From Rhizobium etli CFN 42 (lineage in GTDB: Bacteria > Pseudomonadota > Alphaproteobacteria > Rhizobiales > Rhizobiaceae): a stretch of DNA of 64,000 nucleotides. The notes below the pieces were generated by a model, which was given only the letters and a program-made list of their open reading frames with translations, did no database searches and was not told where the DNA came from. The translations under genes were made by a program, and so were the position numbers. Positions 4,736-34,312 of this stretch are shown piece by piece; positions within the stretch are counted from its first letter, which is position 1, and each line of letters begins with the position of its first letter. The stretch covers positions 2,483,001 to 2,547,000 of the forward strand of contig NC_007761.1 in NCBI RefSeq assembly GCF_000092045.1, read 5' to 3'.

Positions 4736-5020
4736 TCAGCCGGTAATGCGGAAATCCCTCGGCATATTCTCGAGCTGAGCCACTTCCGTCTCGACACCTG
4801 AAACCGATGCCCCTGCAGGTCCGCGCCTCAAACGCTCGATCATTGCCGAAATCGCGCTATCCGCTCCAGCGATCAAGGCGGACACGGATCCGTCCGCTTC
4901 GTTGCGCACCCAACCCGTTACGCCGAGCCGCAGCGCCTCATCGCGTGTCCACATGCGAAAACCGACACCTTGGACCCTGCCTGATATCCGCACTCGCACC
5001 GCCTCGTTATGATCGGACAT
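4736..5020 (-). CDS. acyP: acylphosphatase
   Basis: A 94-residue enzyme that hydrolyses acyl phosphates. The family signature GRVQGVGFR spans residues 14-22, with the catalytic Arg22. The second signature, [11 protein letters not shown], carries the catalytic Asn40. Length and order match the single-domain acylphosphatase family. The gene is on the minus strand just downstream of the DUF2059 gene, with an intrinsic terminator (5066-5093) between them, so the two are probably transcribed separately. Confidence 0.93.
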
Positions 5021-5065
5021 ATCGCCTCACCAAAACCTCGCCGCCGTTGCCGGATAGATCATAAC

Positions 5066-5093
5066 AAAAAAGCCCGGACGATGCCGGGCTTTT
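5066..5093 (-). terminator. intrinsic terminator of the DUF2059 gene
   Basis: Read on the minus strand, AAAAGCCCGGC-ATC-GTCCGGGCTTTTTT forms a short GC-rich stem followed by a run of six T. It begins about 20 bp after the DUF2059 stop codon. Confidence 0.85.
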
Positions 5094-5114
5094 GCAAATC
5101 TGCGGAGGCAGCCC

Positions 5115-19652: not shown

Positions 19653-20036
19653 TCAGCGCGGCTTTTCCGCCGTGTCGCGGTTCATGCCCTTTTCCCGGAG
19701 CTCGTCCTCATAGGCTGAAAACAGCTCCGCCCCCCGTTCGCCCAGTTCACGCAGGTAGGTCCAGGTGTAGATGCCGGTATCGTGCATGTCGTCGAAACCG
19801 ATTCGGACCGCATAATTGCCGGTCGGCGTCATCGAGACGATCGCGACGTTGCGCTTGCCCGGCACCGTCACCTTCTGCCCCGGCCCGTGGCCCTGGACCT
19901 CGGCAGACGGTGAAAGAACGCGCAGGAGTTCGGCCGAAAGGTCGAAGCTCTGGCCGTCGTTGAAGGTCACCACCAGCCGCTGCCGGTCCTTTGAAACGCG
20001 AAGTTCGCTCGGCCAGATATCGCTCATCTCTATCAT
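19653..20036 (-). CDS. DUF971 (gamma-butyrobetaine hydroxylase-like N-terminal) protein
   Basis: A 127-residue protein made of one DUF971 domain: WPSELRVSKDRQRLVVTFNDG at about 8-28 (a single run broken here: WPSELRVSKD, RQRLVVTFNDG), LRVLSPSAEVQGHGPGQ near 39-55 and AVRIGFDDMHDTGIYTWTYL near 76-95. In many bacteria this domain is stand-alone and is thought to be linked to Fe-S cluster handling, an idea not tested here. It is upstream of ltrA on the minus strand and divergent from moaA. Confidence 0.88.
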   Translation of the reverse strand: MIEMSDIWPSELRVSKDRQRLVVTFNDGQSFDLSAELLRVLSPSAEVQGHGPGQKVTVPGKRNVAIVSMTPTGNYAVRIGFDDMHDTGIYTWTYLRELGERGAELFSAYEDELREKGMNRDTAEKPR

Positions 20037-20209
20037 CCTCTTTCCCCTGGAGAAGTAGGCGTTCGGCTTTTTCGAGGCAAGCGCAAATTAGCGTGTGCGA
20101 GATCCGTTTCCCTTGACGGGGCAATCACATATGCACAAATAGAAACCTGTCGCTTGAAAAACGGGGCCATCCCGCTTGGCGCGCTTCAAATCCCCCCGCG
20201 GAGGAATTG

Positions 20210-21256
20210 GTGAATAACAGAGTGGGAACGATAGGCAACGCATCGCCGCTCACGGCTGATGCACATCCGATGATCGACCCTTTCGGCCGGGCGGTCACCT
20301 ATCTCCGCGTTTCCGTCACCGACCGCTGCGACTTCCGCTGCACCTATTGCATGGCGGAGAACATGACCTTTCTGCCGAAGAAGGATCTCTTGACGCTCGA
20401 AGAGCTCGACCGCCTCTGTTCCGCCTTTATCGCCAAGGGCGTCAGCAAGATCAGGCTGACCGGCGGCGAGCCGCTGGTGCGCAAGAACATCATGTATCTG
20501 GTGCGCAAGCTCGGCGCAAAGATCGGCTCCGGCCTGGATGAGCTGACGCTTACGACCAACGGCTCACAGCTTTCCCGCCATGCCGCCGAGCTTCATGATT
20601 GCGGCGTGCGCCGCATCAACGTCTCGCTCGACACGCTTGATCCCGACAAGTTCCGCAAGATCACCCGCTGGGGCGATTTCGACAAGGTCATGGAAGGTAT
20701 TGACGCCGCCCAGAAGGCCGGCATCAAAATCAAGCTCAACGCCGTGGCGCTGAAGAATTTCAACGATGCCGAGATACCCGATCTCCTGCGCTTCGCCCAT
20801 GGCCGCGGCATGGACCTCACCGTCATCGAAACCATGCCGATGGGTGAGATCGAAGAGGACCGCACGGACCAATACCTGCCACTCTCAGAACTGCGCGCCG
20901 ATCTCGAACGTCAGTTCACGCTAACCGACATAGACTACCAGACCGGCGGCCCGGCGCGTTACGTCAGGGTTTCCGAGACGGGCGGCCGCCTCGGCTTCAT
21001 CACGCCGATGACCCATAATTTCTGCGAGAGCTGCAACCGCGTCCGGCTCACCTGCACCGGCACGCTTTATATGTGCCTCGGCCAGAACGACGCCGCGGAT
21101 CTGCGCGCCGCACTGCGCGCCACCGAAGACGACGCCCTCCTCCACGCCGCCATCGACGAGGCCATCACCCGCAAGCCGAAAGGCCACGACTTCATCATCG
21201 ACCGGACGCATAATAGGCCAGCTGTGGCCCGGCACATGAGTGTCACTGGTGGGTGA
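20210..21256 (+). CDS. moaA: GTP 3',8-cyclase, molybdenum cofactor biosynthesis
   Basis: A radical-SAM enzyme that, with MoaC, makes cyclic pyranopterin monophosphate from GTP. The 348-residue protein carries the SAM cluster Cys40-x3-Cys44-x2-Cys47 ([11 protein letters not shown]), [10 protein letters not shown] near 80 and the C-terminal second cluster [14 protein letters not shown] near 265-280. It ends with GG, as active MoaA must. A GTG at 20210 is chosen because GGAGG (20200-20204) lies 5 nt upstream; a TTG at 20207 is too close. mobA and mobB lie 13 kb away; moaC is not in the window. Confidence 0.96.
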
Positions 21257-21278
21257 GAGGCGGTCCCGCGACGCGGGA

Positions 21279-21303
21279 GCGATCGATCCAGTGAATCGAT
21301 CGC
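21279..21303. repeat. inverted repeat after moaA
   Basis: GCGATCGAT-CCAGTGA-ATCGATCGC: perfect 9-bp arms with a 7-nt loop, 23 bp after the moaA stop. There is no T run. It may be a dispersed palindromic unit or a processing or termination hairpin. Confidence 0.6.
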
Positions 21304-21366
21304 AGCGTCGAACGCCCTGAGCCTACGCGAAGGGCCAGGCAACGGTGCGGCGGCTAACCTATCCCA

Positions 21367-21697
21367 TTACCCAGGCTTACGCGCACAAATCGCAAACCGC
21401 TCCTGCACCATGCGCTCCAACCCGCGCAGGAACAGTATCGCGCCTGTGCCCAGTGAGTATCCCCGAGCTTGCGGTCGACCACGATATCCGTAAAGCCCCC
21501 TGACGGAGAAGATCGACCACCGCTTCGACCGGCATCTCCTTGGCAAAGTGTACGCGGGAGCGGATGTTCTGATGGCGCGCCATCATTTCCGGCGACATGT
21601 GGCTCGCCGCAGGCTTGCCAGTGATCTTCGTCCAGAGCTTTTGTAGGCCCTTGACCCAGGTCTCCCTGCCCATATTGCCGTCGACGATCAGCACCTT
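21367..21697 (-). pseudogene. remnant of a SAM-dependent methyltransferase (C-terminal part)
   Basis: Minus-strand homology starts abruptly at VLIVDGNMGRETWVKGL (21694 side) and follows three frames in turn. Frame 1 runs to VVDLLRQG, frame 2 gives GFTDIVVDRKLGDTHWAQA, and frame 3 gives LFLRGLERMVQERFAICA then RKPG and a stop at 21367. This is the C-terminal half of a class I methyltransferase with at least two frameshifts and no SAM-binding half. It abuts a transporter remnant on the other strand. The family call is moderate; the decay is clear. Confidence 0.65.
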
Positions 21698-22144
21698 CCT
21701 GCCGGGCTCTATCCTGGCAGGCGCGCTGCTGTTGTCGCTGACCTCGATCGTCTCGAAGTCGATTTCGGGGGCGCGCGCCCGTCGTCTTCCCGATCGGCAT
21801 CATCACCGCGCTGGTCGGCCGACGGCCAGCGCCAGCTCGTCTCCGTCGCCCGGGCGCTCGTGCGCGAGCCCGAGATCATGCTGATGGACGAACCGACAAG
21901 CGCATTAGACCTCCACCGTCAGATCCACGTGCTCGATTTCATGCGCCGCCGGGCGCGCGCCAAAGCCATGCTCGTCCTGATCGCCAAGGTGCTGGTCATC
22001 CCCAACGGCCGCATGCACGCCTGCGGCGCCCCCAGGGACGTCGTCACCGCCGAGATGCTGCGGGAGATCTATCGGGTCGAGGCCCGGGTGGAGAAATGCT
22101 CTATGGACCACGATCATGTCATCGTGGATGGGACGGCGCATTGA
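21696..22144 (+). pseudogene. fused remnants of FecD-type permease and FecE-type ABC ATPase
   Basis: FLPGSILAGALLLSLTSIVS then, in another frame, VVFPIGIITALVG is the C-terminal end of an iron-siderophore permease. It runs straight into ADGQRQLVSVARALVREPEI with MLMDEPTSALDLHRQ, the signature and Walker B region of a FecE-type ATPase, without the Walker A half. The H-loop segment (normally HDLN...DRV) is deleted between MLVLIAK and VLVIPNGRMHACG. The tail GAPRDVVTAEMLREIYRVEAR is typical of the family. At least one frameshift and two deletions are needed to explain it, so it is non-functional. Confidence 0.8.
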
Positions 22145-22165
22145 GGCCGGCAAAATCAGTCTGCC

Positions 22166-23116
22166 TCAGTCGATCAATCGCTGCGCGGTGAACTTGTCCG
22201 TAACAAGCATGTCGATGACCCCAACGCGGAGTGCACCTGCAATAGCGTTGGTCTTTTTGGCACCGCCGGCAAGCGCGATGACCCGGTCCACCCGTTCGAG
22301 ATCCTCGAGTGGAAGCCCTATGACCCGGTCGTCCAGCGGCGTCTTGACCGGCTTGCCGTTCTTATCGAAGAAGCGCAGTGAGATATCGCCGACGGCTCCC
22401 GCTTCCGCGAGATCGGAGAGTTCGCGTGACGAAAAGATATTCCCGGATCGAGCGAGAAGTTCGGAGGGCTCGACGGCTCCGATGCCCACAATCGCCAGCG
22501 TGATGCTGCCGAATAGGTCCATTGTCTCGCGGACGAAGGGGTCGGCCTGCATCAGCAGTTTTGCCTCTCTTGATGTCGTCACGCCCTGCACGGGGAGCAG
22601 TTTCGGCTCGGCGCCGGTCAGCCGCGCAAGCCGCGTGGTCAGCTGCGTCGCATGCGTCTGCACGGAAGGATCGCCCATGCCTCCCAGGGTCTGGACGACA
22701 TATTTCGCCTGAGCGCTCTTCTGCGGGTGAATGTTCTCGACCATCTTGAAGATGGTCTGGCTCCAGCTCGAAACGCCGATGATCTCCCCTGGCGCAAGCG
22801 TCACCTCCAGGAGATGCGCCGCCGCCTCGCCGATGCGGGCCATGATGGCGCCGTCCCGGTCTTCGGTGCATTCGACGACGATCGCCTCCGGCAGATCGTA
22901 TTTCTCGCGAAGCGCGCCCTCGAGCTCGCTATAGGTGCCGACGGGAGGGATGACGCTGGTTCGCACGATATCTTCGGCCTCGGCACGTTTGAGCATGCGC
23001 GATACCGTCGCCTGCGACAGGCGAAGGTGTTGTGCGATCTCCGCCTGCCGCCGCCCCTCGATGTGGTACATCTGGGCGACCCTTGAAATGAGGCGGAGTT
23101 CGTTGAGGCGAGTCAT
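22166..23116 (-). CDS. SorC/DeoR-type sugar-binding transcriptional regulator
   Basis: A 316-residue regulator. The N-terminal HTH (about 1-55) contains AQMYHIEGRRQAEIAQHLRLS then QATVSRMLKRAEAE. The sugar-binding SorC domain (about 60-316) is related to glucosamine-phosphate deaminases, with GVSSWSQTIFKMVENI and LGGMGDPSVQTHATQLTTRLA near 135-160. Members bind a phosphorylated sugar effector. It is the last gene of the minus-strand arm (transketolase, kinase, regulator), so it is presumably autoregulated and controls the divergent operons. A GTGAAT-N4-ATTCAC dyad lies just upstream (23130-23145). Confidence 0.92.
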   Translation of the reverse strand: MTRLNELRLISRVAQMYHIEGRRQAEIAQHLRLSQATVSRMLKRAEAEDIVRTSVIPPVGTYSELEGALREKYDLPEAIVVECTEDRDGAIMARIGEAAAHLLEVTLAPGEIIGVSSWSQTIFKMVENIHPQKSAQAKYVVQTLGGMGDPSVQTHATQLTTRLARLTGAEPKLLPVQGVTTSREAKLLMQADPFVRETMDLFGSITLAIVGIGAVEPSELLARSGNIFSSRELSDLAEAGAVGDISLRFFDKNGKPVKTPLDDRVIGLPLEDLERVDRVIALAGGAKKTNAIAGALRVGVIDMLVTDKFTAQRLID

Positions 23117-23129
23117 CGCTGATCCCGGA

Positions 23130-23145
23130 GTGAATTTTTATTCAC
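23130..23145. promoter_or_regulatory. dyad GTGAAT-N4-ATTCAC, candidate operator
   Basis: A perfect 6-bp-arm inverted repeat, 14 bp before the regulator start. It overlaps the end of the kinase coding sequence (TGA stop at 23138-23140). The same pattern with one mismatch is at 26593-26608 in the divergent promoter region. Confidence 0.5.
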
Positions 23146-24604
23146 CTTTAGCCTGTGTTTCGCGGGACGTCGAGCGGGCAAGCGCATCATTCCAGGTCGC
23201 CAGAAGGGCCTCTCGGTCCATGACCTGCGGCTCGATGGTCTGGCTGTTTCGCGGCAGCTCCGAGACGACTTGGAGATCGCTCCACAAGCCGAGGGAGAGG
23301 CCCGCCAGATAAGCGGCGCCGAGAGCCGACGCCTCGGGTGCTTCGCATTGGATCACGGGATGCTCTATAAGATCCGAGACGCACTGCATCAGAAAGCGGT
23401 TCTGGCTCGGTCCCCCATCCACATAGAGCGCCCCGAGTTCGCCGCCGCTCTGCGCCCGCATGGCCGCGATCACATCATGCACCTGGAAGGCGATGGAATC
23501 GGTTACCGACCGCGCCATCTGCGCGCGTGTCGTATTGAAGTTGATCTGGGAGAACAAAGCACGGGCGCCGGAATTCCAGTAAGGCGCACCCAGCCCCACG
23601 AACGCCGGCACGAAGCCAGGCGCGCCCGGCCCGGCGCTCGCCGCAAGTTCGACGAGGGCAGCCACGTCAGCCAGGCCAAGAATATCCGCCATCCAGGGAA
23701 GGCTGGCGGCGCAAACGAGGATATTGCCCTCGAAAGCGAAGGTCGGCTTTCCCGCGATGCGCCATGCGACGGTGGTTGTGATGCCATTGCGCGGGGCGAT
23801 GAATTGCGGCAGCGTCGTCATGACCGAAGAGCCGGTGCCGAAGGTCACCTTGCCGTCGCCCGGCTTGAATGCGCCATGGCCGAACAGGGCTGCGTGGCTG
23901 TCTCCGATCGCGGCCATGATAGGCGTGCCGTCGGGCACCCCGGGCAATCCTTGCGTTCTGCCGAAATCGCCAGAGCTGTCGAGCACCTCCGGCAGGAGCG
24001 CGATATCGACGCCGAAGATCTCGCCAAGTTCCTCGCTCCATCTCTGTTCCCTGAGATCGAACAACTGGCTCCTGGCGGCATTCGAAGCGTCGCAGACATG
24101 CCGGCGCCCGCCCGTCAGGCAGTGAATGAGCCAACTGTCGACCGTTCCCAGCCGCACCGATCGCCCGGCCGGGATCCGGTCGAGCAGCCATCGGAATTTC
24201 GAACCCGGAAACATCGGATCCAATGGCAGGCCGGTCAGCGCCTGCACACGGTCGAGGCGGCCTTCGACAATGAGACGTTCGCAATCCGGCGCCGTTCGAC
24301 GGCACTGCCAGCTGACCACTGGTCCGAGCGCATCTCCCGTTTCGGCATCCCAGGCGGTAACGGACTCGCGCTGGTTGGAAATGGCTACGGCCTCGATCGT
24401 CGCATCGGGGCCGGCCTTCAGGCAGGCGTCGATCGCTTCGCAGACCGATGCGTAGAGCCGGCGCGGATCTTGTTCGACCCAGCCTTCCTTCGGATAGGAG
24501 ATGCCGACTGGAGCGGAACCCCTGCCGATGATTTCTCCCTTTTCGGAAACGAGAACTGCCTTTGAATTGGTCGTACCCTGGTCGATTGCCAGAATTGCCC
24601 GCAT
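23138..24604 (-). CDS. FGGY-family carbohydrate kinase
   Basis: A 488-residue ATP-dependent sugar kinase. The N-terminal ATP/sugar fold starts AIDQGTTNSKAVL (6-18). EGWVEQDP is near 45-52, SNQRESVTAWDAETGDALGP near 80-100 and the C-terminal signature VDGGPSQNRFLMQ near 400. The overall pattern is closest to the glycerol kinase branch of FGGY, but the position between a split transketolase and a SorC regulator argues for a ketose rather than glycerol. Apulose kinases of the apiose pathway are FGGY kinases in the same context. MRAILAIDQ (24604) is chosen over an ATG 4 codons upstream. Substrate inferred, family certain. Confidence 0.9.
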   Translation of the reverse strand: MRAILAIDQGTTNSKAVLVSEKGEIIGRGSAPVGISYPKEGWVEQDPRRLYASVCEAIDACLKAGPDATIEAVAISNQRESVTAWDAETGDALGPVVSWQCRRTAPDCERLIVEGRLDRVQALTGLPLDPMFPGSKFRWLLDRIPAGRSVRLGTVDSWLIHCLTGGRRHVCDASNAARSQLFDLREQRWSEELGEIFGVDIALLPEVLDSSGDFGRTQGLPGVPDGTPIMAAIGDSHAALFGHGAFKPGDGKVTFGTGSSVMTTLPQFIAPRNGITTTVAWRIAGKPTFAFEGNILVCAASLPWMADILGLADVAALVELAASAGPGAPGFVPAFVGLGAPYWNSGARALFSQINFNTTRAQMARSVTDSIAFQVHDVIAAMRAQSGGELGALYVDGGPSQNRFLMQCVSDLIEHPVIQCEAPEASALGAAYLAGLSLGLWSDLQVVSELPRNSQTIEPQVMDREALLATWNDALARSTSRETQAKGE

Positions 24605-24672
24605 TTTATCCTCCACAGATCAGGCGGCGGCCGCGGCGGCAAATGCGCCCCGGCCGCTTCACGCGATCCCAA

Positions 24673-25629
24673 TTACTTGCGCTTGATCAGCGCCTGTGCA
24701 GCGTCGGCGATGGCGGATGGCGACATCCCGTATTCGTCGAGCAGGAACTCTGCCGAACCGGTCGGGGCGTAGACGCCGGGAACGCCGAGACGTTTCATCG
24801 GCACCGGGGCATTATCGACCACCACTTCGGCGACCGCGGAGCCGAGCCCGCCAAAGATCGAATGCTCTTCGGCCGTGACAATCGCTCCGGTTTCCCTAGC
24901 CGCGGCGATGATGGCCTCCTCGTCGATCGGACGAACCGTTGCGAGATTGAGCACCCTGGCATCGATGCCGCGTTCGGCGAGAATCTCGGCAGCCTTCACG
25001 ATGCGATGGGTCAAGGTGCCATTGGCGATCAGCGTGACGTCGGAACCTTGGCGGAGGAGATTCGCCTTGCCGAGTTCGAACCTGTGGCCCTCCGGCAGAA
25101 GGTCGGGCACACCGACCCGTGACAGACGCAGGAAACAGGGACCGCTGTAGGTCGCTGCCCAGGCAACGGCAGCGGCGGTCTCGATCCGGTCGCAGGGCGC
25201 GATAACAGGAAGATTGGGCAGGACCCGCGTCCAGGCGAAGTCTTCGATCGAGTGATGAGTCGGCCCCAGTTCGCCATAGGCCATTCCGGAAGAGATGCCC
25301 ACCAGCTTTACGTTGGCATTCGAGTACGAAATATCGGCCTTGATCTGCTCCAGCGACCGGCCAGTGAGAAACGGCGCGGCGCCGCACACGAAGGGCAGCC
25401 GTCCGCCATTGGCGAGGCCTGCTCCGACGCCGACCATGTTCTGCTCGGCGATGCCGACATTGACGAGGCGCTCTCCAAACTTCGCCTTGAAGCCGCCGAG
25501 CTTGGAGGAACCGACGGAGTCGTTGCAGACGGCAACGATCATTTCGTTTTCAGCTGCCAGCTGCTCGAGCGTGGAGGCGAATGCGTCGCGGCAATCGTGA
25601 AGCTTGGGTGGGTTTACTGGCGCGTTCAT
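24673..25629 (-). CDS. transketolase, C-terminal subunit
   Basis: A 318-residue protein equal to the pyrimidine-binding and C-terminal domains of transketolase. It has NVGIAEQNMVGVGAGLANGG at about 56-75 (the Glu that activates thiamine diphosphate) and GLGSAVAEVVVDNAPVPMKRLG in the C-domain. Its partner, the diphosphate-binding subunit, ends at the same spot: TAATG overlap, so the two are translationally coupled. Split transketolases of this kind act in specialised sugar pathways, including apulose-4-phosphate cleavage. The housekeeping enzyme is normally a single 650-residue chain. Confidence 0.92.
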   Translation of the reverse strand: MNAPVNPPKLHDCRDAFASTLEQLAAENEMIVAVCNDSVGSSKLGGFKAKFGERLVNVGIAEQNMVGVGAGLANGGRLPFVCGAAPFLTGRSLEQIKADISYSNANVKLVGISSGMAYGELGPTHHSIEDFAWTRVLPNLPVIAPCDRIETAAAVAWAATYSGPCFLRLSRVGVPDLLPEGHRFELGKANLLRQGSDVTLIANGTLTHRIVKAAEILAERGIDARVLNLATVRPIDEEAIIAAARETGAIVTAEEHSIFGGLGSAVAEVVVDNAPVPMKRLGVPGVYAPTGSAEFLLDEYGMSPSAIADAAQALIKRK

Positions 25630-26438
25630 TACAGTGCCTCCGACAATTCTGCCAATGCGATTTCGTATTGTTCCTTGCTCGGCACCTTATGATGCCACTC
25701 GACCCGGTCCTGCATGAAGGAGATTCCGTGGCCCTTGTTGGTATGGGCGACGATGCAGTGCGGCCCTGAACCCCGGCGTTCGAGAGCCGGAACGATCTCG
25801 CCCATATTGTTGCCGTCGATCTCGGTGACTTCCCAGCCGAAGGCTTCGAGCTTCGGACGAAGCGGAGCGAGATCGTTGGTTTCGGCAAGTGCTGCGCCCT
25901 GCTGGAACCTGTTGTGATCGATGATCAAGGTCAAGTTGTCGAGCTTGAACTGGGCTGCCGCCATGATCGCTTCCCAGTTGGAGCCCTCCTGCATCTCACC
26001 GTCGCCGGTAACGACATAGGTATGATATCCAGCGCCCGAGAGCTTGGCGGCTTTCGCCATTCCCACCGCGACCGGAAGGCCGTGGCCGAGCGGACCGGTA
26101 TTGGTTTCGACGCCAGGAACCTTGTTGCAGTTCGGATGCCCGTTCAGCCTCGAATGCGGCTGCAGGAAGGTGGAAATCTCCTCCTCCGGGATGAAGCCGC
26201 GCTTTGCGAGTGTCACATAGAGGGCGCAAGCCGTATGTCCCTTTGAAAGAACGAACCTGTCGCGGTCGGGATGCTTCGGCTGGTCCGGCCAGACATTCAG
26301 CACACGAAAATAGAGCGCGGTCAAAATGTCGATGACCGACATCTCCCCGCCGATGTGGCCGGCGCCCGCTTCAAAGACCGCCTGGAGATCGCGCAATCGG
26401 ATCTGGCGGGCAATGCGCTCAAGTTCTGTCGTATCCAT
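25629..26438 (-). CDS. transketolase, N-terminal (thiamine diphosphate-binding) subunit
   Basis: A 269-residue protein equal to the first third of transketolase. It contains AGAGHIGGEMSVIDILTALYF near 23-43, the diphosphate-binding motif VTGDGEMQEGSNWEAIMAAA then QFKLDNLTLIIDHN near 138-172, and GHGISFMQDR near 240. The start MDTTELERIA (26438) is preferred to an ATG 18 codons upstream: AAGAGGAACC precedes it, and the upstream stretch overlaps the dyad. First gene of the minus-strand operon. Confidence 0.93.
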   Translation of the reverse strand: MDTTELERIARQIRLRDLQAVFEAGAGHIGGEMSVIDILTALYFRVLNVWPDQPKHPDRDRFVLSKGHTACALYVTLAKRGFIPEEEISTFLQPHSRLNGHPNCNKVPGVETNTGPLGHGLPVAVGMAKAAKLSGAGYHTYVVTGDGEMQEGSNWEAIMAAAQFKLDNLTLIIDHNRFQQGAALAETNDLAPLRPKLEAFGWEVTEIDGNNMGEIVPALERRGSGPHCIVAHTNKGHGISFMQDRVEWHHKVPSKEQYEIALAELSEAL

Positions 26439-26452
26439 AAGGTTCCTCTTGA

Positions 26453-26484
26453 TGCATAAATATTCAGTTATCAATATTTTTGCA
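26453..26484. promoter_or_regulatory. 32-bp dyad, candidate SorC-regulator operator
   Basis: TGCATAAATATT (26453-26464) and AATATTTTTGCA (26473-26484) are 12-bp arms with one mismatch and an 8-nt spacer. The dyad lies 15 bp upstream of the transketolase start. A third half-site, TGCACAAATATC, occurs at 26612-26623 beside the opposite operon. Confidence 0.65.
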
Positions 26485-26549
26485 CAACACACCGATTAGT
26501 CAAGCCTCCAAACGAGGTGTCTAACGAGGATATGCTGGTACAAATAGAG

Positions 26550-26578
26550 TTGACAGCCGGAAAGCAAGTTGTTAATGA
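26550..26578 (+). promoter_or_regulatory. sigma70-type promoter of the ABC transporter operon
   Basis: TTGACA (26550-26555), a 17-bp spacer and TAATGA (26573-26578). This is near-consensus, with the predicted start near 26585. The dyad at 26593-26608 and the half-site at 26612 fall just downstream, where a repressor would block initiation. Confidence 0.7.
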
Positions 26579-26592
26579 ATTTTCCAGCACGA

Positions 26593-26608
26593 GTGAATAA
26601 TTATTCTC
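26593..26608. promoter_or_regulatory. dyad GTGAAT-AATT-ATTCTC, candidate operator
   Basis: Same layout as the perfect dyad at 23130-23145, with one mismatch, and containing a perfect 12-bp core palindrome GAATAATTATTC. It sits at about +8 to +23 from the predicted start of the transporter operon. Confidence 0.5.
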
Positions 26609-26652
26609 GCTTGCACAAATATCGGATACAAGCCTAGGCATAGGGAGGAGAA

Positions 26653-27633
26653 ATGGTGGCGCTCGATATCAATGAACACAGGCTTTCGTCCGGCGCTTGG
26701 CTCGGAAAGCTCAAGGGAGCTACCGGTCCGCTGGTGGGATTGCTCGCGCTGTGTATCTTTCTGAGCTTCAGCACAGACACGTTTCTTTCGGTTAGAAACG
26801 GCCTCAATATCCTCGACCAGATCACCGTCCTCGGCATCATGGCAGTTGGAATGACCTTCGTCATCCTGATCGGCGGCATCGATCTGTCCGTCGGCTCTGC
26901 ACTTGCCCTGGCGATGATGGTCATGGGCTGGACCGCCAACGTCGCTGGTCTGCCGCTGCCTGTCGGGATCGCCTTCGCGCTGATCGCATCGGCCGTTTCC
27001 GGCCTCATCGTCGGGCTGCTGGTGACGCAGTTCAGGGTTCCAGCCTTCATCGCCACGCTTGCGATGATGTCGGCGGCGCGCGGCGTAGCAAACATGATCA
27101 CCGACGGTCAGCAGATCGTCGGCTTCCCCGACTGGTTCATGATGCTGGCGATCGATCGCCATTTCGGCGTCATGACGGCCACGGTCTTCCTCATGCTCGC
27201 GGTCGTTCTTGCGGCGTGGCTTTTCCTGCACTTCCGCTCCGAAGGCCGCATGCTCTACGCGGTGGGCGGCAACCCCGAAGTCGCACGCCTCGCAGGCATC
27301 AACGTTCCGCTGGTGACGATATCAGTCTATGTCGTGAGCGCCGTCCTTGCGGGGCTCGCAGGCATCGTGCTCGCCGCCCGCCTGGATTCCGTCCAGCCGT
27401 CGAGCGGCCTGGGTTATGAGCTGGACACCATCGCCGCGGTCGTCATCGGCGGGACATCGCTCTCCGGCGGCGCGGGCGGCATCGGGGGAACGCTGATCGG
27501 CGTCCTGATCATCGGCGTGCTTCGCAACGGCCTCAATCTTCTCAACGTTTCGCCCTTCCTGCAGCAGGTGATCATCGGGATCGTCATCGTGCTTGCGGTC
27601 GGCGCAGAGACCATTCGTCGGCGCCGCGCCTGA
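26653..27633 (+). CDS. ribose-class ABC transporter permease
   Basis: A 326-residue inner-membrane permease (RbsC/BPD_transp_2 type) with about 8-10 helices. It has FVILIGGIDLSVGSALALAM near 74-93 and the cytoplasmic coupling segment GRMLYAVGGNPEVARLAGINV near 197-217, both hallmarks of the sugar CUT2 group. GGAGGAG lies 4 nt before the ATG. First gene of the plus-strand operon permease-SBP-ATPase-SDR; one permease gene presumably forms a homodimer, as in RbsC. Confidence 0.92.
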   Translation: MVALDINEHRLSSGAWLGKLKGATGPLVGLLALCIFLSFSTDTFLSVRNGLNILDQITVLGIMAVGMTFVILIGGIDLSVGSALALAMMVMGWTANVAGLPLPVGIAFALIASAVSGLIVGLLVTQFRVPAFIATLAMMSAARGVANMITDGQQIVGFPDWFMMLAIDRHFGVMTATVFLMLAVVLAAWLFLHFRSEGRMLYAVGGNPEVARLAGINVPLVTISVYVVSAVLAGLAGIVLAARLDSVQPSSGLGYELDTIAAVVIGGTSLSGGAGGIGGTLIGVLIIGVLRNGLNLLNVSPFLQQVIIGIVIVLAVGAETIRRRRA

Positions 27634-27749
27634 CGCGCATGGTCCGCCGCGTTGGCGGACACGGAATTCCGTCCCTAAAATTCGGGGCGGATCAATAACC
27701 CCAGGGGGAGGACATACCCTAGGGTCCATCAAACAACGGAGGAACTACA

Positions 27750-28679
27750 ATGAAAATTGCGCGCACCATGCTCGCGTCCGCTGCACTGCTCGGTCTCATG
27801 CTCGGTCCCGTTCACGCGGCGGAACTGAAAAAGCTTGGTCTGGCCGTTGCCAACCTTCAGGCAAACTTCTTCAACCAGATCAAGCAATCGGTCGAAGCCG
27901 AAGCCAAGAAGCGCGGCATCGAGGTTATCACGGTCGACGCGAAGGGCGACGGGCCGACGCAGGTCAACCAGATCCAGGATCTTCTGACCCAGAAAATCGA
28001 TGCACTGATCTACATTCCGGCAGGTGCCGCCGCGGCAACCGTTCCGGTCAAACTCGCGAAGAACGCCGGCATTCCCGTCGTCAACGTCGATCGCAACGCC
28101 GAAGGCGCGCCGGGCGATACATTCCTCGCAACCGATTCCGTCGCGTCTGCCAAGGCGGTGTGCGACTACATTCTGAAGGAAGCCGGCGGCAAGGGGAAGA
28201 TGGTCATCATCCATGGCCAGAAAGGCACGACGCCGGAAGTCGATCGCTCGAAGGGCTGCGGCGAATCCCTCAAGGCCTATCCTGATGTGAAGGTCGTTGC
28301 CGAGCAATATTCGAACATCTGGAGCCAGGACGAAGGCTTCCAGATCATGCAGAATATGCTGCAGGCAAATCCTGATGTCTCGATCGTCTTCGCACAGGCC
28401 GATGGCCTTGCACTTGGCGCAGCTCAGGCGATCAAGGTCGCCAATCCCTCGCAGAAGATCGTAGTCGGCGGCTTCGATGGCGACACTGCGGCTCTCGAAG
28501 CGCTCAGCAAGGGCGTCTTCAACGTGACGGCGACCCAGCAGACGCAGAAAATGGGACGCGATGCGGTTGAAAACGCCGCCAAGCTCGTCGCCGGTGGAAA
28601 GGTACCCCCAGTACAGCTCTTGGATGCCACGCTGACAACCAAGGAAAACGTCGCGGGCTTCATCGCCAACCACCCGTAA
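27750..28679 (+). CDS. ribose-class periplasmic sugar-binding protein
   Basis: A 309-residue exported protein: signal peptide 1-23 (core LASAALLGLMLG, cleavage after HAA) and a periplasmic binding protein type 1 fold of the RbsB class. It has the typical AVANLQANFFNQIKQSVEAEA opening, IDALIYIPAG near 87 and PVVNVDRNAEG near 110. A GGAGGA ribosome site stands 5-10 nt upstream. The 116-bp gap from the permease gene contains short dyads (GGACACGGAATTCCGTCC) that could modulate expression of this component. Confidence 0.93.
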   Translation: MKIARTMLASAALLGLMLGPVHAAELKKLGLAVANLQANFFNQIKQSVEAEAKKRGIEVITVDAKGDGPTQVNQIQDLLTQKIDALIYIPAGAAAATVPVKLAKNAGIPVVNVDRNAEGAPGDTFLATDSVASAKAVCDYILKEAGGKGKMVIIHGQKGTTPEVDRSKGCGESLKAYPDVKVVAEQYSNIWSQDEGFQIMQNMLQANPDVSIVFAQADGLALGAAQAIKVANPSQKIVVGGFDGDTAALEALSKGVFNVTATQQTQKMGRDAVENAAKLVAGGKVPPVQLLDATLTTKENVAGFIANHP

Positions 28680-28707
28680 TGAAGCCGAGGCCTTGAGGAG
28701 GTGTGCT

Positions 28708-30186
28708 GTGACTGATCCAGTTCTTTCCCTGAGGGGCATATCCAAGTGGTATGGGCCGCTCCAGGTTCTGAAGAATGTCAGCCTGGACGTCTATCCCGGT
28801 GAAGTGGTGGCACTTCTCGGTGAAAACGGAGCGGGCAAGTCGACGCTGTCGGGCATCATTGCCGGCTCACGCACACCTTCCGAGGGATCGATGACATGGT
28901 TGGGGCAGCCCTATGCCCCGGCCACTCCGCGCGAAGCCATCGACAACGGCGTCGTCCTGATCCATCAGGAACTGCAGCTTCTGCCGCAATTGTCGATCGC
29001 GGAAAACGTCTTCATTGGTCGCTGGCCGATGAAGAACGGCGTCGTCGACCGGGCTCAGATGGTTCGCCGCGCCCAGGACCAGCTCGCGCGCCTGAACCTT
29101 CATATACCGGCAACACGGATGGTCGCCGGCCTTTCCACCGCAAATCAACAGCTCATCGAAATCGCCAAGGCGCTGGCTCTCAACGCCAAGCTCCTGATCC
29201 TCGATGAACCGACAGCGGCCCTTGGCAGTGCTGAGACGGAAGCTCTGTTCAAACAAGTTCGCAAGCTTCGTTCGGAGGGTGTGGGCATCGTCTACATTTC
29301 CCACCGCATGGAAGAAATCAAGCAGATAACCGACCGGATCGTCGTCCTTCGCGACGGCGAGCGGGTGCAGGAATTCTCAGACAGCGCCACGCCGGTGCGA
29401 ACGATTGTCGAGAGCATGGTCGGACGCCCGCTTGATCGCCTGTTCCCTGCCCTGCCGCTACCAACCGGCCGCCCGGTGCTTGAGGTGTCCGGGCTGAGCT
29501 CACCTGAGAACTCGTTCCGGGACGTTACCTTCGAGGTGCGGGCCGGAGAAATTCTCGGCATCGCCGGACTGGTCGGCGCCGGCCGCACCGAACTGGTGCG
29601 GGCGATTTCCGGAGCAGACCCAATCAGTGCGGGCTCGATCACGCTCGAAGGCGAGGAACTCAGGCTGCGGGACCCAGCCGACGCTATCGCCAAGGGCATC
29701 GTGATGGTTCCGGAAGACCGCAAGGAGCAGGGCCTGATCGTCGGGCACCGGATCAGCGAGAACATTATCTATGCCAACCTGGATAAACTCGGCGGCGGCT
29801 GGATTACCCCGCGCCTCAAGCGCTCCTTCGCGGAAAAGGCGGTTGCCAAGTTCGGCGTCAAGGGCCGCGCCGAGCAATATGCCTCCGATCTTTCTGGCGG
29901 CAATCAGCAGAAGGTCGTGATCGCCAAGTGGCTCTTGCGCGAGCCCAAGGTCGTCGTGCTCGACGAACCGACAAGAGGCATCGACGTCGGCGCCCGCGCG
30001 GGCATCTACGACATCATCGTCGACCTTGCCAAACAGGGTGTGGCGCTCATTGTCGTAAGCTCCGACCTCGAGGAGGTTCTCGGCATTTCCAATCGCATTC
30101 TCGTGCTTGCCCAGGGCAAGCAGGCAGGCATCCTCGATCGTGACCAGGCAAATGACGTCTCGGTCATGGAGTTAGCGACCATCTAA
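28708..30186 (+). CDS. ribose-class sugar ABC transporter ATPase (two cassettes)
   Basis: A 492-residue RbsA/MglA-type protein with two nucleotide-binding halves. Half 1 has Walker A GENGAGKST near 40, an atypical signature LSTANQQLIEIAKAL and LLILDEPTAALG; half 2 has GLVGAGRTE near 287, LSGGNQQKVVIAKWLL and VVVLDEPTRGIDVG. Degeneration of one cassette is normal in this family. A GTG start at 28708 is chosen because GAGGAGG ends 6 nt upstream; the frame-opening TTG at 28693 has no such site. Between the binding-protein gene and the SDR gene. Confidence 0.93.
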   Translation: MTDPVLSLRGISKWYGPLQVLKNVSLDVYPGEVVALLGENGAGKSTLSGIIAGSRTPSEGSMTWLGQPYAPATPREAIDNGVVLIHQELQLLPQLSIAENVFIGRWPMKNGVVDRAQMVRRAQDQLARLNLHIPATRMVAGLSTANQQLIEIAKALALNAKLLILDEPTAALGSAETEALFKQVRKLRSEGVGIVYISHRMEEIKQITDRIVVLRDGERVQEFSDSATPVRTIVESMVGRPLDRLFPALPLPTGRPVLEVSGLSSPENSFRDVTFEVRAGEILGIAGLVGAGRTELVRAISGADPISAGSITLEGEELRLRDPADAIAKGIVMVPEDRKEQGLIVGHRISENIIYANLDKLGGGWITPRLKRSFAEKAVAKFGVKGRAEQYASDLSGGNQQKVVIAKWLLREPKVVVLDEPTRGIDVGARAGIYDIIVDLAKQGVALIVVSSDLEEVLGISNRILVLAQGKQAGILDRDQANDVSVMELATI

Positions 30187-30208
30187 ACAGACAGAGAAAG
30201 GAAGAGCG

Positions 30209-30997
30209 GTGTCTGACATCACTCTGAACGCCCCGAAGCTTTTCGACCTCAGCGGCCAGGTTGCCATCGTCACCGGTGCCGGCAGCGGCATCGGGCAGCG
30301 CATTGCTATCGGCCTTGCGCAATGCGGCGCTGATGTGGCGCTGCTCGACCGCCGGACTGACGACGGGCTGGCCAAGACGGCCAAACATATTCGCGCCGCC
30401 GGCCGTCGCTCGATCGAGATCGCGGCCGATGTGACGAGCAAATCCTCGCTTGCCGATGCCGTCGCACGAACCGAAGCGGATCTCGGCGCCCTGACGCTGG
30501 CCGTCAACGCTGCAGGCATCGCCAACGCCAACCCAGCAGAAGATATGGAAGAGGATCAATACCAGACGTTGATGGATATCAACCTGAAAGGCATCTTTCT
30601 TTCCTGCCAGGCTGAGGCCCGCGCCATGCTGAAGAATGGACGCGGCGCCATCGTCAACATCGCCTCCATGTCGGGGGTCATCGTCAACCGGGGCCTCAGC
30701 CAAGCGCATTACAACGCCTCCAAGGCGGGCGTCATCCATATGTCGAAGTCCATGGCGATGGAATGGGTCGGCCGCGGCATTCGCGTCAACACCATTTCCC
30801 CCGGCTATACGGCGACGCCGATGAATACCCGTCCGGAGATGGTTCATCAAACCAAGCTTTTCGAAGAGCAGACACCGATGCAGCGCATGGCTGATGTCGA
30901 CGAGATGGTCGGTCCGGCCGTGTTCCTGCTGTCGAACGCAGCAAGTTTCGTGACCGGTGTCGATCTTCTGGTAGACGGCGGTTTCTGCTGCTGGTGA
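30209..30997 (+). CDS. SDR-family dehydrogenase, probable polyol/sugar oxidoreductase
   Basis: A 262-residue classical short-chain dehydrogenase. The NAD(P)-binding TGAGSGIGQ is near 24-32, NAAGIA near 98, and the catalytic Ser (ASMSG) and Tyr-x3-Lys (HYNASK near 169-174) are all present. It has a GTG start with AAGGAAGAG upstream, 22 bp after the ATPase gene, so it is in the same operon. It resembles the D-threitol dehydrogenase (DthD-like) group. In context it likely oxidises an imported alditol to the ketose that the kinase uses. The substrate is inference. Confidence 0.88.
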   Translation: MSDITLNAPKLFDLSGQVAIVTGAGSGIGQRIAIGLAQCGADVALLDRRTDDGLAKTAKHIRAAGRRSIEIAADVTSKSSLADAVARTEADLGALTLAVNAAGIANANPAEDMEEDQYQTLMDINLKGIFLSCQAEARAMLKNGRGAIVNIASMSGVIVNRGLSQAHYNASKAGVIHMSKSMAMEWVGRGIRVNTISPGYTATPMNTRPEMVHQTKLFEEQTPMQRMADVDEMVGPAVFLLSNAASFVTGVDLLVDGGFCCW

Positions 30998-31226
30998 TGC
31001 GACGAAGCGCATCCGCAACTGGAACATGAACCGGTCTCGCTTCCTCCCTGGCTGAGACCGAGGCGCTGAAGGGACCAACGGGCAAGACGGCGCGTGACAT
31101 CGCCGCCGCCCGCCCTTCGCGCTGATCGAATGAGCTGAGGCACGGGCGCCGTCACTGGCGCTCGAGACGGCGCGAATTCACCGAGCGGATTTGCCGCCTC
31201 TCGAGGGATACCTGAAAGGAAACAGC
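30998..31226. other. spacer between two SDR genes, possible remnant
   Basis: 229 bp with no convincing gene. One plus frame reads ETEALKGPTGKTARDIAAA then RPSR and a stop near 31125, which looks like the C-terminal end of a degraded protein with no start. The ribosome site AAAGGAA of the next gene is at its 3' end. Confidence 0.3.
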
Positions 31227-32009
31227 ATGAAACGCTTCGAAAATAAAACGGTCGTCATCACCGGCGCCAGCCGCGGCATCGGCGCGGCCATCGCCAAGCG
31301 CTTTGCGCGCGAAGGCGCCAATCTCGTCGTCTCGGCCAACGAGGATCTGGTCCACGGCGTCGCGGAAGCGATCCGGGCCAAAGGCGGCAGGGCCATCTCG
31401 TTCATCGGCGATGTCACCGACAAGGCGAGCGTCAAGGCGCTCTACGATGCCGCCGAAAAGGAATTCGGCGCGGTCGATGTCTCGATCCAGAATGCCGGCG
31501 TCATCACCATCGCCCGCATCGAAGATATGACCGAAAACGAATGGGACAAGGTCATGGCCGTCAACACCAAGGGCGTCTTCCTCTGCGCCCAGGAGGCCAT
31601 TGCCAGAATGCGCAAGCACAAGCGCGGCGGCCGCATCATCAACACCGCCTCCGGCCAGGCCCGCGACGGCTTCATCTACACCCCGCACTACGCCGCCTCG
31701 AAAATGGGCGTCGTCGGCATCACCCAGAGCCTCGCCAAGGAAATCGCGATCGAAAACATCACCGTCAACGCCTTCTGCCCCGGCATCATCGAAACCGACA
31801 TGTGGGCCTATAACGACCAGGCCTGGGGCAAGCTCCTCGGCAATTACGGTCCTGGCGAACTGATGAAAGAATGGGTCGAGGGCATTCCGATGAAACGCGC
31901 CGGCACCGGCGAAGATGTGGCCGGCCTGGTCACTTTCCTCGCCAGCGACGACGCCGCCTACATCACCGGCCAGACGATCAATGTCGATGGCGGATTGATT
32001 ATGTCATAG
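31227..32009 (+). CDS. SDR-family dehydrogenase (sorbitol/galactitol dehydrogenase-like)
   Basis: A 260-residue classical SDR: TGASRGIGA near 11-19, NAG at 90-92, NTASGQ with the catalytic Ser near 140 and YAASK near 155-159. The C-terminal FLASDDAAYITGQTINVDGG is typical of polyol dehydrogenases and acetoin reductases. The start at 31227 follows AAAGGAA by 6 nt. It follows the ABC-SDR operon on the same strand after 229 bp, so it may be expressed with it or separately. Codon use shows a strong C-ending bias, higher than the preceding operon, hinting at a different origin. Confidence 0.85.
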   Translation: MKRFENKTVVITGASRGIGAAIAKRFAREGANLVVSANEDLVHGVAEAIRAKGGRAISFIGDVTDKASVKALYDAAEKEFGAVDVSIQNAGVITIARIEDMTENEWDKVMAVNTKGVFLCAQEAIARMRKHKRGGRIINTASGQARDGFIYTPHYAASKMGVVGITQSLAKEIAIENITVNAFCPGIIETDMWAYNDQAWGKLLGNYGPGELMKEWVEGIPMKRAGTGEDVAGLVTFLASDDAAYITGQTINVDGGLIMS

Positions 32010-32169
32010 GCAGGGACTTCGAAGGCGTTGAAGCTGAATGGAAGATCTGACCTGGAGCAGCCAAATGCCTTTCGCTTGCCGCTCAAGGCGTTTGTCGCTG
32101 ACGCTCCTGACCTGCCTCATCTGCCCTGCGGGCATCAGCTCCACGATGGCCATATCCACCGCAAACGTC

Positions 32170-32250
32170 TCAAATGGAGCGAGGCACTACCGCGAGTCTC
32201 CCCAGCGGGGAGAAGATGCCGGCAGGCAGATGAGGGGGCAGCACGGCACG
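32170..32250. repeat. dispersed intergenic repeat (family A), inverse copy
   Basis: GGAGCGAGGCACTACCGCGAG, CTCCCCAGCGGGGAGAAG and GCCGGCAGGCAGATGAGGGG follow in order. The reverse complement closely matches 7384-7465. The surrounding 32010-32312 interval has no supported gene. Confidence 0.65.
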
Positions 32251-32312
32251 CCTTCATTGCCTGGCTTCGGTGAGCGCAAGCGAAAGCAAAATGAACGCCC
32301 CCATCATCAACC

Positions 32313-33080
32313 CTACGTCCGGCTGATCGAAACCCCACCATCCGCCAGCATCGCCGTCCCCGTCACGAAGCTCGACAGGTCGGACGCCAGGAAAAGCGCG
32401 ACGTTGGCGATCTCTTCCGGCTGCGCCATGCGTTTCAGAGCATGCAGCCCGTTGACGAAGGCAAGCACTTCCGCCGTCGCGTCGGGCGCGTTGGTAATGC
32501 TGGCCGGCGTATCGGTGCCGCCGGGCAGAAGGGCATTAACGCGGATGTTGCGCGAGGCGAGTTCGGCGGCGAGGACCTGCACGAGACCGATCAAGCCGGC
32601 CTTGCTGGCGGCATAGGCGCCCATGCCGGGCATGCCGGCGGTGTAGCCGACGAAGGTGGAGGTGAAGATCAGCGAACCGCCGCCCTCTCCCATCGCCGCC
32701 GACTGGTGTTTGGCGCCAAGAAAGGCGGCGGTCAGATTGGTCTCGATCGTTTCGCGCCAGCCCTCCAGCGACAATCCGCCAACCGGCCCCATCTCGCCGA
32801 GGCCGCCGGCATTGTTGAAGGCAATGTCGAGCCTGCCGAAACGGGAGACCGCCGTTTCGACCAGCCTTGCCTGCAGCGCCTCGTCCCTGACATCGCCGGC
32901 AACGGCGACAGCCTCTCCGCCCTCCGCTTCGATTTCGGCGACGACGGCATCGAGTGCATCCTGCCGCCGTCCGTTGATCACCAGCTTCGCGCCTTCCCGA
33001 GCAAAGACCTTCGCCGCCGCGCGGCCGATGCCCGAGCTGGCACCGGTGACGATTGCGGTTCTGTCCTTCAGAAGTGTCAT
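32313..33080 (-). CDS. SDR-family oxidoreductase
   Basis: A 255-residue classical SDR. The cofactor motif TGASSGIGR is at 13-21, followed by NGRR at 37-40 (an arginine pair that favours NADP). NNAGG is near 90, the catalytic Ser region is FTSTFVG near 140, and the Tyr-x3-Lys is YAASK near 154-158. The C-terminus is FLASDLSSFVTGTAMLADGG. The substrate is not predictable. It is convergent with the preceding SDR, divergent from the EamA gene and probably monocistronic. Confidence 0.85.
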   Translation of the reverse strand: MTLLKDRTAIVTGASSGIGRAAAKVFAREGAKLVINGRRQDALDAVVAEIEAEGGEAVAVAGDVRDEALQARLVETAVSRFGRLDIAFNNAGGLGEMGPVGGLSLEGWRETIETNLTAAFLGAKHQSAAMGEGGGSLIFTSTFVGYTAGMPGMGAYAASKAGLIGLVQVLAAELASRNIRVNALLPGGTDTPASITNAPDATAEVLAFVNGLHALKRMAQPEEIANVALFLASDLSSFVTGTAMLADGGVSISRT

Positions 33081-33397
33081 ATCCGTTTCTCCTCAGTTGT
33101 TGAGGCATCCCAGATCTCAAACATCTGACGGTGCAGCCACCCGTTTCCCGCGCGCAAAAACAAAATCCGCCGATGAAAGTTGGTCTTGGCCGGATCAGTG
33201 CCCTCGGTATGGCATATCCGAAATACCGGATTCGTCAGATAAAACGGTAAGTTGCTGCGGTTTCCGCAGAGGCGCCTGCCGTGACGTCAGCACCATCGTG
33301 CGCCGCATCATCGATTTATGCAGGGTGTGACATTCATTCGATTCCCTTCACGCATCTTCCCGACTAAGAAGGGCGCACAGGTAACGGGAATCTCTTC
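33081..33397. other. divergent intergenic region, SDR / EamA exporter
   Basis: About 317 bp. I see a short dyad ATCCG-AAATA-CCGGAT near 33204-33219 and TGACGTCA near 33281. No gene is supported. Promoters of both flanking genes must lie here. Confidence 0.4.
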
Positions 33398-34306
33398 ATG
33401 CCGCGGTCACGCAATACTGAGGGCGCCATCTATATGAGCATGGCGATGGCCGGATTTTCCGCGAGCGATGCTCTCTCCAAATCGGTGATCGCCTCTATGA
33501 ACGCCGGCGAGATCATGTTTCTGCGCGGCCTCTTCACCAGCCTGCTCGTCTATCTCATAGCCAGGAGAATGGGCGCTCTGCGCTCCTGGCGCGTCGTGCG
33601 GCAGCCGATCATCATCCTCCGCATCGTCTGCGAGATGTTCTCCGCCGTCACCTATATCACCGCACTCGGCATGATGCCGATCGCCAATGCCTCGGCGATC
33701 CTGCAGTCGCTGCCGCTGGTTGTCACCTTTGGCGCCGCGCTGTTCTTCAACGAGCCGGTCGGCTGGCGGCGCTGGTCGGCGATCCTCGTCGGCCTCGTCG
33801 GGGTGATGATCATCATCCGCCCCGGCCCCGAAGGCTTCACCCCCGCCGCCCTCCTCTGCGTCGCCGCGGTGCTGACGACGGCCGGCCGCGATCTCGCCAC
33901 CCGCTCGATCGATCCGGAGATTCCCTCGCTGATGATCACCGTCATCACCGCCATCTCCGCCTCCTTCTTCGGCGCTTTGCTCATCCCGGTGCTCGGCGGT
34001 TGGCAGCCGGTCAGCGCGACTTCGCTCGGGCATCTCCTGCTCGCCTCGGTGCTGGTGCTCGTCGGCTACCAGTCGGTCATCCTCGCCATGCGCACTGGAG
34101 AAATTTCCTTCGTCGCTCCATTCCGCTATACCAGCCTGATCTTTTCCTCGCTGCTCGGCTTTTTCTTCTTCGCCGAAGTGCCCGACAGCTGGACGCTCCT
34201 CGGCGCCGCAATCGTCATCGCTTCCGGCCTCTATACGTTCTATCGTGAAGCCAAGCGCCGCGTGCCGCCGATCGCGCAGGAGTCTGCGCCGCGCTCACCG
34301 GTTTGA
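33398..34306 (+). CDS. EamA/DMT-family membrane transporter
   Basis: A 302-residue inner-membrane protein with ten predicted helices in two EamA repeats (about 10-145 and 155-290). The N-terminal half has FSASDALSKSVIASMNAGEIMFLRG (broken here as FSASDALSKSVIAS and MNAGEIMFLRG), typical of the metabolite exporters related to RhaT/YdcZ. The substrate is unknown. It is followed after 6 bp by mobA, so all three genes may form one transcript, although no functional link to molybdopterin is evident. Confidence 0.87.
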   Translation: MPRSRNTEGAIYMSMAMAGFSASDALSKSVIASMNAGEIMFLRGLFTSLLVYLIARRMGALRSWRVVRQPIIILRIVCEMFSAVTYITALGMMPIANASAILQSLPLVVTFGAALFFNEPVGWRRWSAILVGLVGVMIIIRPGPEGFTPAALLCVAAVLTTAGRDLATRSIDPEIPSLMITVITAISASFFGALLIPVLGGWQPVSATSLGHLLLASVLVLVGYQSVILAMRTGEISFVAPFRYTSLIFSSLLGFFFFAEVPDSWTLLGAAIVIASGLYTFYREAKRRVPPIAQESAPRSPV

Positions 34307-34312
34307 GGCAGG

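Follow-up and report, generated by a model that had tools for sequence, protein, structure and literature searches.

A probable isomerase-free version of the transketolase-type apiose pathway, with two short-chain dehydrogenases/reductases, in Rhizobium etli CFN 42

How a putative apulose kinase and a putative apulose 4-phosphate transketolase could be supplied with their ketose when no sugar isomerase is encoded beside them is the question raised by a divergent sugar locus in Rhizobium etli CFN 42 (genome assembly of 6.53 Mb), found in the 64,000-nucleotide stretch of NC_007761.1 analysed here and called the window below. On the reverse strand lie genes for a SorC/DeoR-type sugar-binding transcriptional regulator (22166..23116), an FGGY kinase of the glycerol-kinase superfamily that resembles the apulose kinase AplK (23138..24604) and the two parts of a split transketolase, the AptB-like C part (24673..25629) and the AptA-like N part (25629..26438). 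On the forward strand lie the permease (26653..27633), the periplasmic binding protein (27750..28679) and the double ATPase (28708..30186) of a CUT2 sugar ATP-binding cassette (ABC) importer, followed by two short-chain dehydrogenases/reductases (SDRs), SDR1 (30209..30997) and SDR2 (31227..32009). The gene content, homology, co-occurrence, swapping of modules, changes in the binding pocket and operator-like sites that we observed lead us to consider it likely that the locus encodes the transketolase-type apiose pathway in a form without isomerase, acting on apiose, on its alditol apiitol, or on both.

It is proposed that the CUT2 importer takes in D-apiose and/or the alditol D-apiitol, that SDR2 interconverts apiose and apiitol, and that SDR1 turns apiitol into the ketose apulose by oxidation at C2, the pair of them putting two redox-neutral steps in place of the single one of apiose isomerase. 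The FGGY kinase would convert apulose to apulose 4-phosphate. With glyceraldehyde 3-phosphate as acceptor of the two-carbon end of this phosphate, the split transketolase would then form xylulose 5-phosphate and dihydroxyacetone phosphate, and the acceptor would be restored by triose-phosphate isomerase, for which several related operons have a gene. A transketolase-type D-apiose pathway with ApsI, AplK and AptA/AptB was reportedly described by Carter et al. 2018, who are said to have found that apulose 4-phosphate and glyceraldehyde 3-phosphate yield xylulose 5-phosphate and dihydroxyacetone phosphate. The R. etli locus has a kinase and a split transketolase of the same families and probably converges with that pathway on apulose, but it shows no isomerase and has two SDRs instead. 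A parallel is found in the xylose reductase and xylitol dehydrogenase that bypass xylose isomerase, where two dehydrogenases likewise replace one isomerase through an alditol, although the sugar is another one and in the R. etli locus a kinase and a dedicated transketolase come next. An oxidative apionate route is also described, in the available text of PMC11747546.

The regulator matches PF04198 with 218 bits, the C part matches PF02779 and PF02780, the N part PF00456, and the double ATPase PF00005 over two stretches; the permease matches PF02653 and scores 262 bits with the ribose-permease model, below its cut-off of 398. The kinase, which likely starts at ATG 24604, reaches 421 bits with TIGR01311, far below the GlpK equivalog cut-off of 590. 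For the N part the best matches are in Rhizobium (92-95% identity), with others at 81-86% in Amaricoccus and another Rhodobacteraceae; its likely start is ATG 26438, as annotated in three of four relatives, and that of the ATPase is GTG 28708 behind GAGGAGG, which gives 492 residues as in the same four relatives. A housekeeping transketolase was ruled out, the genome having a separate one of 690 residues. With the starts at 26438 and 28708 corrected, the eight genes named in the initial annotation of this DNA, which comprised all of the above except SDR2, are present, and the TAATG overlap that it had described as joining the N and C parts is seen in the sequence. Its placing of the transketolase and kinase in the apiose-type family agrees with the homology to an Escherichia cluster given below, and the isomerase that it had noted as absent is lacking here too: none was found among the ten proteins scanned at the locus, and a query with a triose-phosphate-isomerase (TIM)-barrel isomerase came back empty from the R. 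etli genome at 1e-15, in a search that had no positive control and did not extend to the fucose-isomerase-like family. SDR2 belongs to the locus: in the same operon of Rhizobium sp. CCGE532 (L024), an SDR with 90% identity to it comes after tpiA; in the window 229 bases separate SDR1 from SDR2, and tblastn at 1e-5 gave no tpiA remnant there. A third SDR gene on the opposite strand (32313-33080) adjoins SDR2. It was left out of the locus; a close homologue (87-95%) beside SDR2 is found only in L041 and L121.

The Escherichia D-apiose cluster (SE15, ECSF_RS02670-02715) resembles the R. etli locus in its two SDRs, CUT2 importer, FGGY kinase, SorC regulator and split AptA/AptB, and in the lack of apsI. 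According to the available text of PMC13001218, published in 2026, E. coli strains of ST131 and the ST14 complex carry a D-apiose cluster without apsI and with two putative oxidoreductases, which its authors suggest replace apsI; growth on D-apiose was seen in four carriers (three E. coli and one E. fergusonii) but not in K-12. By comparison with SE15, the SDR pair is best conserved (SDR1 64% to ECSF_RS02670, SDR2 64% to ECSF_RS02675), ahead of AptA (49%), the SorC regulator (44%), AptB (41%) and AplK (39% over 485 aligned positions), and the importer is conserved least (ATPase 37%, permease 35%, binding protein 26%). The importer of the window is of another lineage and the gene order differs, the importer genes and SDR1 forming one operon opposite the transketolase operon; the DUF2291 lipoprotein that accompanies the E. 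coli-type importer has no match at 1e-12 in positions 20000-36000 of the window. Among the papers listed, and judged by titles and abstract starts, only PMC13001218 concerns transketolase-type apiose genes and none concerns rhizobia or an apiitol route.

How regularly the SDR pair goes with such genes was surveyed in 152 loci, comprising L024-L027 and L030-L040 from annotated records, L041-L120 from a genome scan (the best 80 of at least 568 confirmed relatives), L121-L176 from genome stretches, and the window. Each surveyed locus reaches about 9-10 kb beyond the transketolase unless a contig ends earlier. The counts ignore kinship between related genomes, which are not independent, and for this reason the Fisher value computed on them is not read as a probability. 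The N part, C part and FGGY kinase occur together, at identity and score thresholds that we set, in 123 of the 152, and in 120 after removal of three with an identical N part. The same gene set is found in Rhizobium, Sinorhizobium, Agrobacterium, Shinella, Pseudomonas and Deinococcus; because it recurs across these genera, and because all three palindromes described below fall inside the locus, the locus is not a chance grouping. A binding protein of the window type is present in 63 of the 120 loci, the window included, and is accompanied by SDR1 in all 63 and by SDR2 in 60, the three without SDR2 being L053, L065 and L140, of which L140 is cut by the contig end. The E. coli-type binding protein is present in 28 loci, 19 with an isomerase and 8 with SDR2 (these overlap in L049 and L145). 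An isomerase is encoded in 40/52 loci without SDR1 versus 4/68 with SDR1, and belongs either to the TIM-barrel family PF01261 or to the L-fucose-isomerase-like family PF02952, between which blastp detects no similarity. Twelve loci have neither SDR1 nor an isomerase at the 150-bit line that we set; SDR2 is present in L162, which is cut, and in L173, and weak fucose-isomerase-like matches at or just below this line occur in L084, L090, L092, L098 and L115, while the assignments of L086 and L117 to this family are weak as well (29-30%). The PF02952-type gene stands in the isomerase place of many apulose-type loci, for example L072 (13164-14579), L164 (5118-6578) and L156 (7528-8994).

SDR-type and isomerase-type loci probably feed one lower pathway. 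A tree of the joined transketolase parts was built from 119 loci and 7 outer sequences, L032 (N part broken in the record) and three identical ones having been dropped, and the two types are intermixed on it: Streptomyces L031 (isomerase) pairs with L068 (SDR) at a support of 0.958 and L056 (isomerase) with L071 (SDR) at 0.996, and a gammaproteobacterial clade unites Pseudomonas and E. coli-like SDR loci with isomerase loci. Parsimony gives six switches of entry type, or eight to nine with weak branches collapsed; the outer sequence L037 was placed inside the tree, on a long branch with a support of 0.449. The kinase motif GTGSS[VIL]M is present in the window kinase and in those of at least 64 of 70 SDR-type, 17 of 23 TIM-isomerase-type and 18 of 22 fucose-isomerase-like-type loci. 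A common kinase and transketolase with swapped entries is what would be expected if the entries make the same ketose. That this family is tied to apiose is suggested by an apiosidase (PF13204, E 3.8e-68) directly behind the kinase in L059, with homologues in L060 (67%) and L062 (66%) and weak matches (22-32%) in five more loci, by the pectin-type enzymes GH127, GH28 and GH95 that surround the isomerase-type L031, and by the growth of the Escherichia carriers. The transketolase pair of the window is in the same tree as the loci with an apiosidase. In seven of the 120 loci tpiA is present, always with SDR1 and adjoining it, and between SDR1 and SDR2 in six, and in S. meliloti Rm41 genes for a full transketolase and a fructose-6-phosphate aldolase are present besides tpiA; these additions fit the expected products of the proposed transketolase step. 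A related split transketolase pair also lies inside a non-ribosomal peptide cluster with aminotransferase and LysW-type genes on a Streptomyces plasmid (L036, 7989-9817).

As for the two SDRs themselves, the active-site Tyr and Lys are conserved in 66/66 members of either family (Tyr168 and Lys172 in SDR1). An Asp at the end of the second strand, the usual mark of nicotinamide adenine dinucleotide (NAD) use in SDRs, is present in 66/66 SDR1 (Asp47), for which a role as NAD-dependent apiitol dehydrogenase is proposed; an acid stands there in 2/66 SDR2. The model NF004774, matched by SDR1 with 510 bits (cut-off 360), names no function, and a protein search with SDR1 gave at least 4304 relatives at 1e-70 among at least 7999 scored, and none of the names shown for the 120 listed points to a specific function. 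From the distribution of the genes we infer that SDR2 reduces apiose and SDR1 oxidises apiitol, mainly because SDR1 is present in every locus with a window-type importer and SDR2 is not. D-apiose reductase is classified as EC (Enzyme Commission) 1.1.1.114, and such an enzyme was reportedly obtained from Aerobacter aerogenes by Neal and Kindel 1970; to our knowledge no gene is known for this activity, itself known since about 1970. A cluster with both SDRs is present in Klebsiella aerogenes NCTC 10006, where SDR2 and the kinase are each in two pieces in the record, and a K. pneumoniae record also has both SDRs in the cluster, with the N part read in pieces. The reaction of this reductase, the interconversion of D-apiose and D-apiitol linked to the reduced form of NAD, is KEGG R03577, given in the available text of PMC1686944; it is the same step as that proposed for SDR2, the link between them being one of genome context only. 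In L176 a major facilitator superfamily transporter gene (4314-5597) lies between SDR1 and SDR2, and neither ABC importer was matched in its 18.8 kb.

A structure search with the binding protein returned a ribose-binding fold, which does not tell the ligand, and among solved structures its nearest relatives belong to the ribose-binding proteins (2ioy, 38% identity), as would be the case at a locus for ribose or another common sugar with a relaxed transketolase. The structures 4ry0 and 5ibq are presumably apiose complexes. In the available text of PMC8112048, 5ibq is named without a ligand. The pocket of the window protein is altered (Ala38, Ile89, Trp191 and Ala217), and Ala38 and Ala217 replace the ribose contacts Asn13 and Asn190, which are among the nine residues of E. 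coli RbsB given as ligand-binding in the available text of PMC3676853. Among window-type proteins Ala is found at the former position in 62/62 readable and at the latter in 63/63, whereas the E. coli-type binding proteins keep both Asn in 28/28. Ribose use was rejected, as these two substitutions speak against it; as no ribokinase was among the ten proteins scanned and the kinase falls so far short of the GlpK cut-off, a common-sugar locus seems to us very improbable.

The same pocket, taken together with the loci L049 and L145 described next, makes it plausible that the window-type importer is an apiitol importer. Several loci bear on this point by combining modules that are usually apart. 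L049 (Amaricoccus) and L145 (Rhizobiaceae) have two entry modules each, an isomerase with an E. coli-type importer and SDR1/SDR2 with a window-type importer, and one AptA-like gene was found in each genome, at 1e-25 in that of L049 (besides a full-length one of 848 residues) and at 1e-40 in that of L145. L045 and L154 have a window-type importer, both SDRs and a fucose-isomerase-like gene, and in L169 the SDR pair is accompanied by both importers. The window-type importer occurs with SDR1 in L053 (Jannaschia) and L065 (Paracidovorax), whose genomes show no SDR2-like gene above 39% and 45%, respectively. These hybrids and SDR2-less loci suggest that the cargo of the window-type importer needs SDR1 even beside an apiose isomerase, and apiitol is the simplest candidate. 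We therefore entertain, tentatively and with rather less than even confidence, the more specific possibility that this importer is dedicated to D-apiitol, with SDR1 as apiitol 2-dehydrogenase and SDR2 as the product of the missing apiose reductase gene (EC 1.1.1.114). The isomerase-free pathway would also operate if the importer carried D-apiose only and the SDR pair were a pure isomerase substitute, no alditol being imported. The presence of SDR2 with SDR1 in 60/63 loci of this importer agrees with such a scheme, as do the E. coli and Klebsiella clusters, in which an apiose-type importer goes with the SDRs, and the growth of Escherichia carriers on D-apiose in the available text of PMC13001218; the Ala substitutions at positions where the E. 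coli-type proteins keep Asn, the coexistence of both importers and both entries in L049 and L145 with one AptA-like gene found, the isomerase beside the SDRs in L045 and L154, and the lack of SDR2 in L053 and L065 argue against it, and we regard import of apiose alone as possible but somewhat doubtful.

The initial annotation had seen an SDR in the place of the isomerase and had suggested that an alditol could be the input. The SDR is there and the binding protein lacks two ribose contacts, but a second SDR had been overlooked, and with it the aldose apiose could itself be converted through apiitol to apulose in a redox-neutral way, with no alditol as input; no support was found for the tetritol that had been named as a possible input. 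The accompanying remark that no alditol version of the pathway was known to have been described has to be qualified in two respects: isomerase-free Escherichia clusters with two oxidoreductases, whose carriers grow on D-apiose, and the apiose/apiitol reaction R03577 are known from the available texts of PMC13001218 and PMC1686944, respectively. A dedicated alditol importer may still exist and gains some new support from the hybrid loci and the pocket.

A number of points weigh against an isomerase-free apiose/apiitol pathway as proposed. Its substrates and reactions, the assignment of the SDRs to their steps, the binding by the regulator and the preference of the importer are all inferred; no SDR knock-out is reported in the available text of PMC13001218, and no apiosidase was found in the R. 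etli genome. Four loci hold the SDRs together with an isomerase, so the pair is not simply a stand-in; a two-step apiose route does not account for L053 and L065, with SDR1 and the importer, and import of the alditol alone does not account for the retention of SDR2 in 60/63 loci. Two further loci tell against a strict need for SDR1: in L173, SDR2 (70%) and an E. coli-type importer are joined only by an SDR of 36% where SDR1 would stand, and in L147 the transketolase, kinase and regulator genes are closely similar but both SDRs and the window-type importer are lacking. With no more than 26-37% identity to its E. coli counterpart, the importer may carry a different compound, and SDR1-like genes at 52-56% occur in other sugar loci as well (L187 and L188). 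These last two points, to which the kinase may be added (26-39% together with the importer), would agree with another polyol or ketose, such as a linear pentitol or a tetritol, for whose different ketose phosphate the kinase and transketolase had been recruited; an SDR and an importer are found together in many rhizobial polyol loci. Such a substrate appears unlikely to us, since each SDR has 64% identity to its counterpart in the E. coli apiose cluster, more than any other gene, and since in the hybrid loci one kinase and transketolase serve an isomerase module as well. In the erythritol (ery) locus, moreover, EryB is a GlpD-type and EryC a TIM-barrel protein, and neither kind is among the ten proteins scanned at the window locus.

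Three operator-like palindromes are present in the locus, one at the kinase/regulator junction (TGAATTTTTATTCA, 23131..23144, one mismatch to the pattern TGAATAWWTATTCA), one in front of the transketolase operon (26453..26466) and one in front of the importer operon (26594..26607). At up to two mismatches the pattern has three sites in the 64 kb versus 0.17 expected, all of them in the locus, and a count of three was reached by 0/100 shuffles. A site with at most two mismatches is found in 49 of the 50 divergent intergenic regions of window-type-importer loci, the window included; 13 of the 63 loci were left out of this count, 12 with both genes on one strand and one without an intergenic stretch. 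The palindromes are thus a putative operator of the SorC regulator, which would bind them and control both divergent operons.

Beyond these genes, ribB, encoding 3,4-dihydroxy-2-butanone 4-phosphate (DHBP) synthase, is present in 28/120 apulose-type loci from several phyla (for example L024, 1854-2480; L026, 3355-3996; L055, L060 and L070) and in 0/29 split-transketolase loci without the kinase. A flavin mononucleotide riboswitch was found in five of the six ribB-type loci scanned, and none in L071. It may be speculated that apulose phosphate, a branched pentulose phosphate, perhaps disturbs the housekeeping DHBP synthase. The R. etli genome has two DHBP synthase genes elsewhere, and Rfam gave no match in positions 20000-36000 of the window. 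A thiamin pyrophosphate riboswitch lies shortly beyond the kinase of the isomerase-type L070 (13319-13430).

The SDR-pair entry is already foreshadowed by the Escherichia report (available text of PMC13001218). As far as the literature found shows, what is new is how widely the SDR pair is spread, its association with a distinct type of importer, its occurrence alongside isomerases, and a candidate apiose reductase gene. The comparison points to a lower pathway that is probably shared and can be entered in three interchangeable ways, through either of two unrelated isomerase families or through the SDR pair. It also suggests a way in which clusters that lack an isomerase, such as the one of E. 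coli SE15, can function, and it puts forward two gene families as candidates for the apiose reductase activity. If the window-type importer takes apiitol, a natural apiitol pool should exist, and Alphaproteobacteria, Pseudomonas, Streptomyces, Arthrobacter and Deinococcus would have a free-standing alditol entry to the apulose pathway, in some loci beside an isomerase entry for apiose. Apiose is a branched sugar of the pectic polysaccharide rhamnogalacturonan II and of many plant glycosides, and the locus therefore bears on the plant-derived diet of root bacteria.

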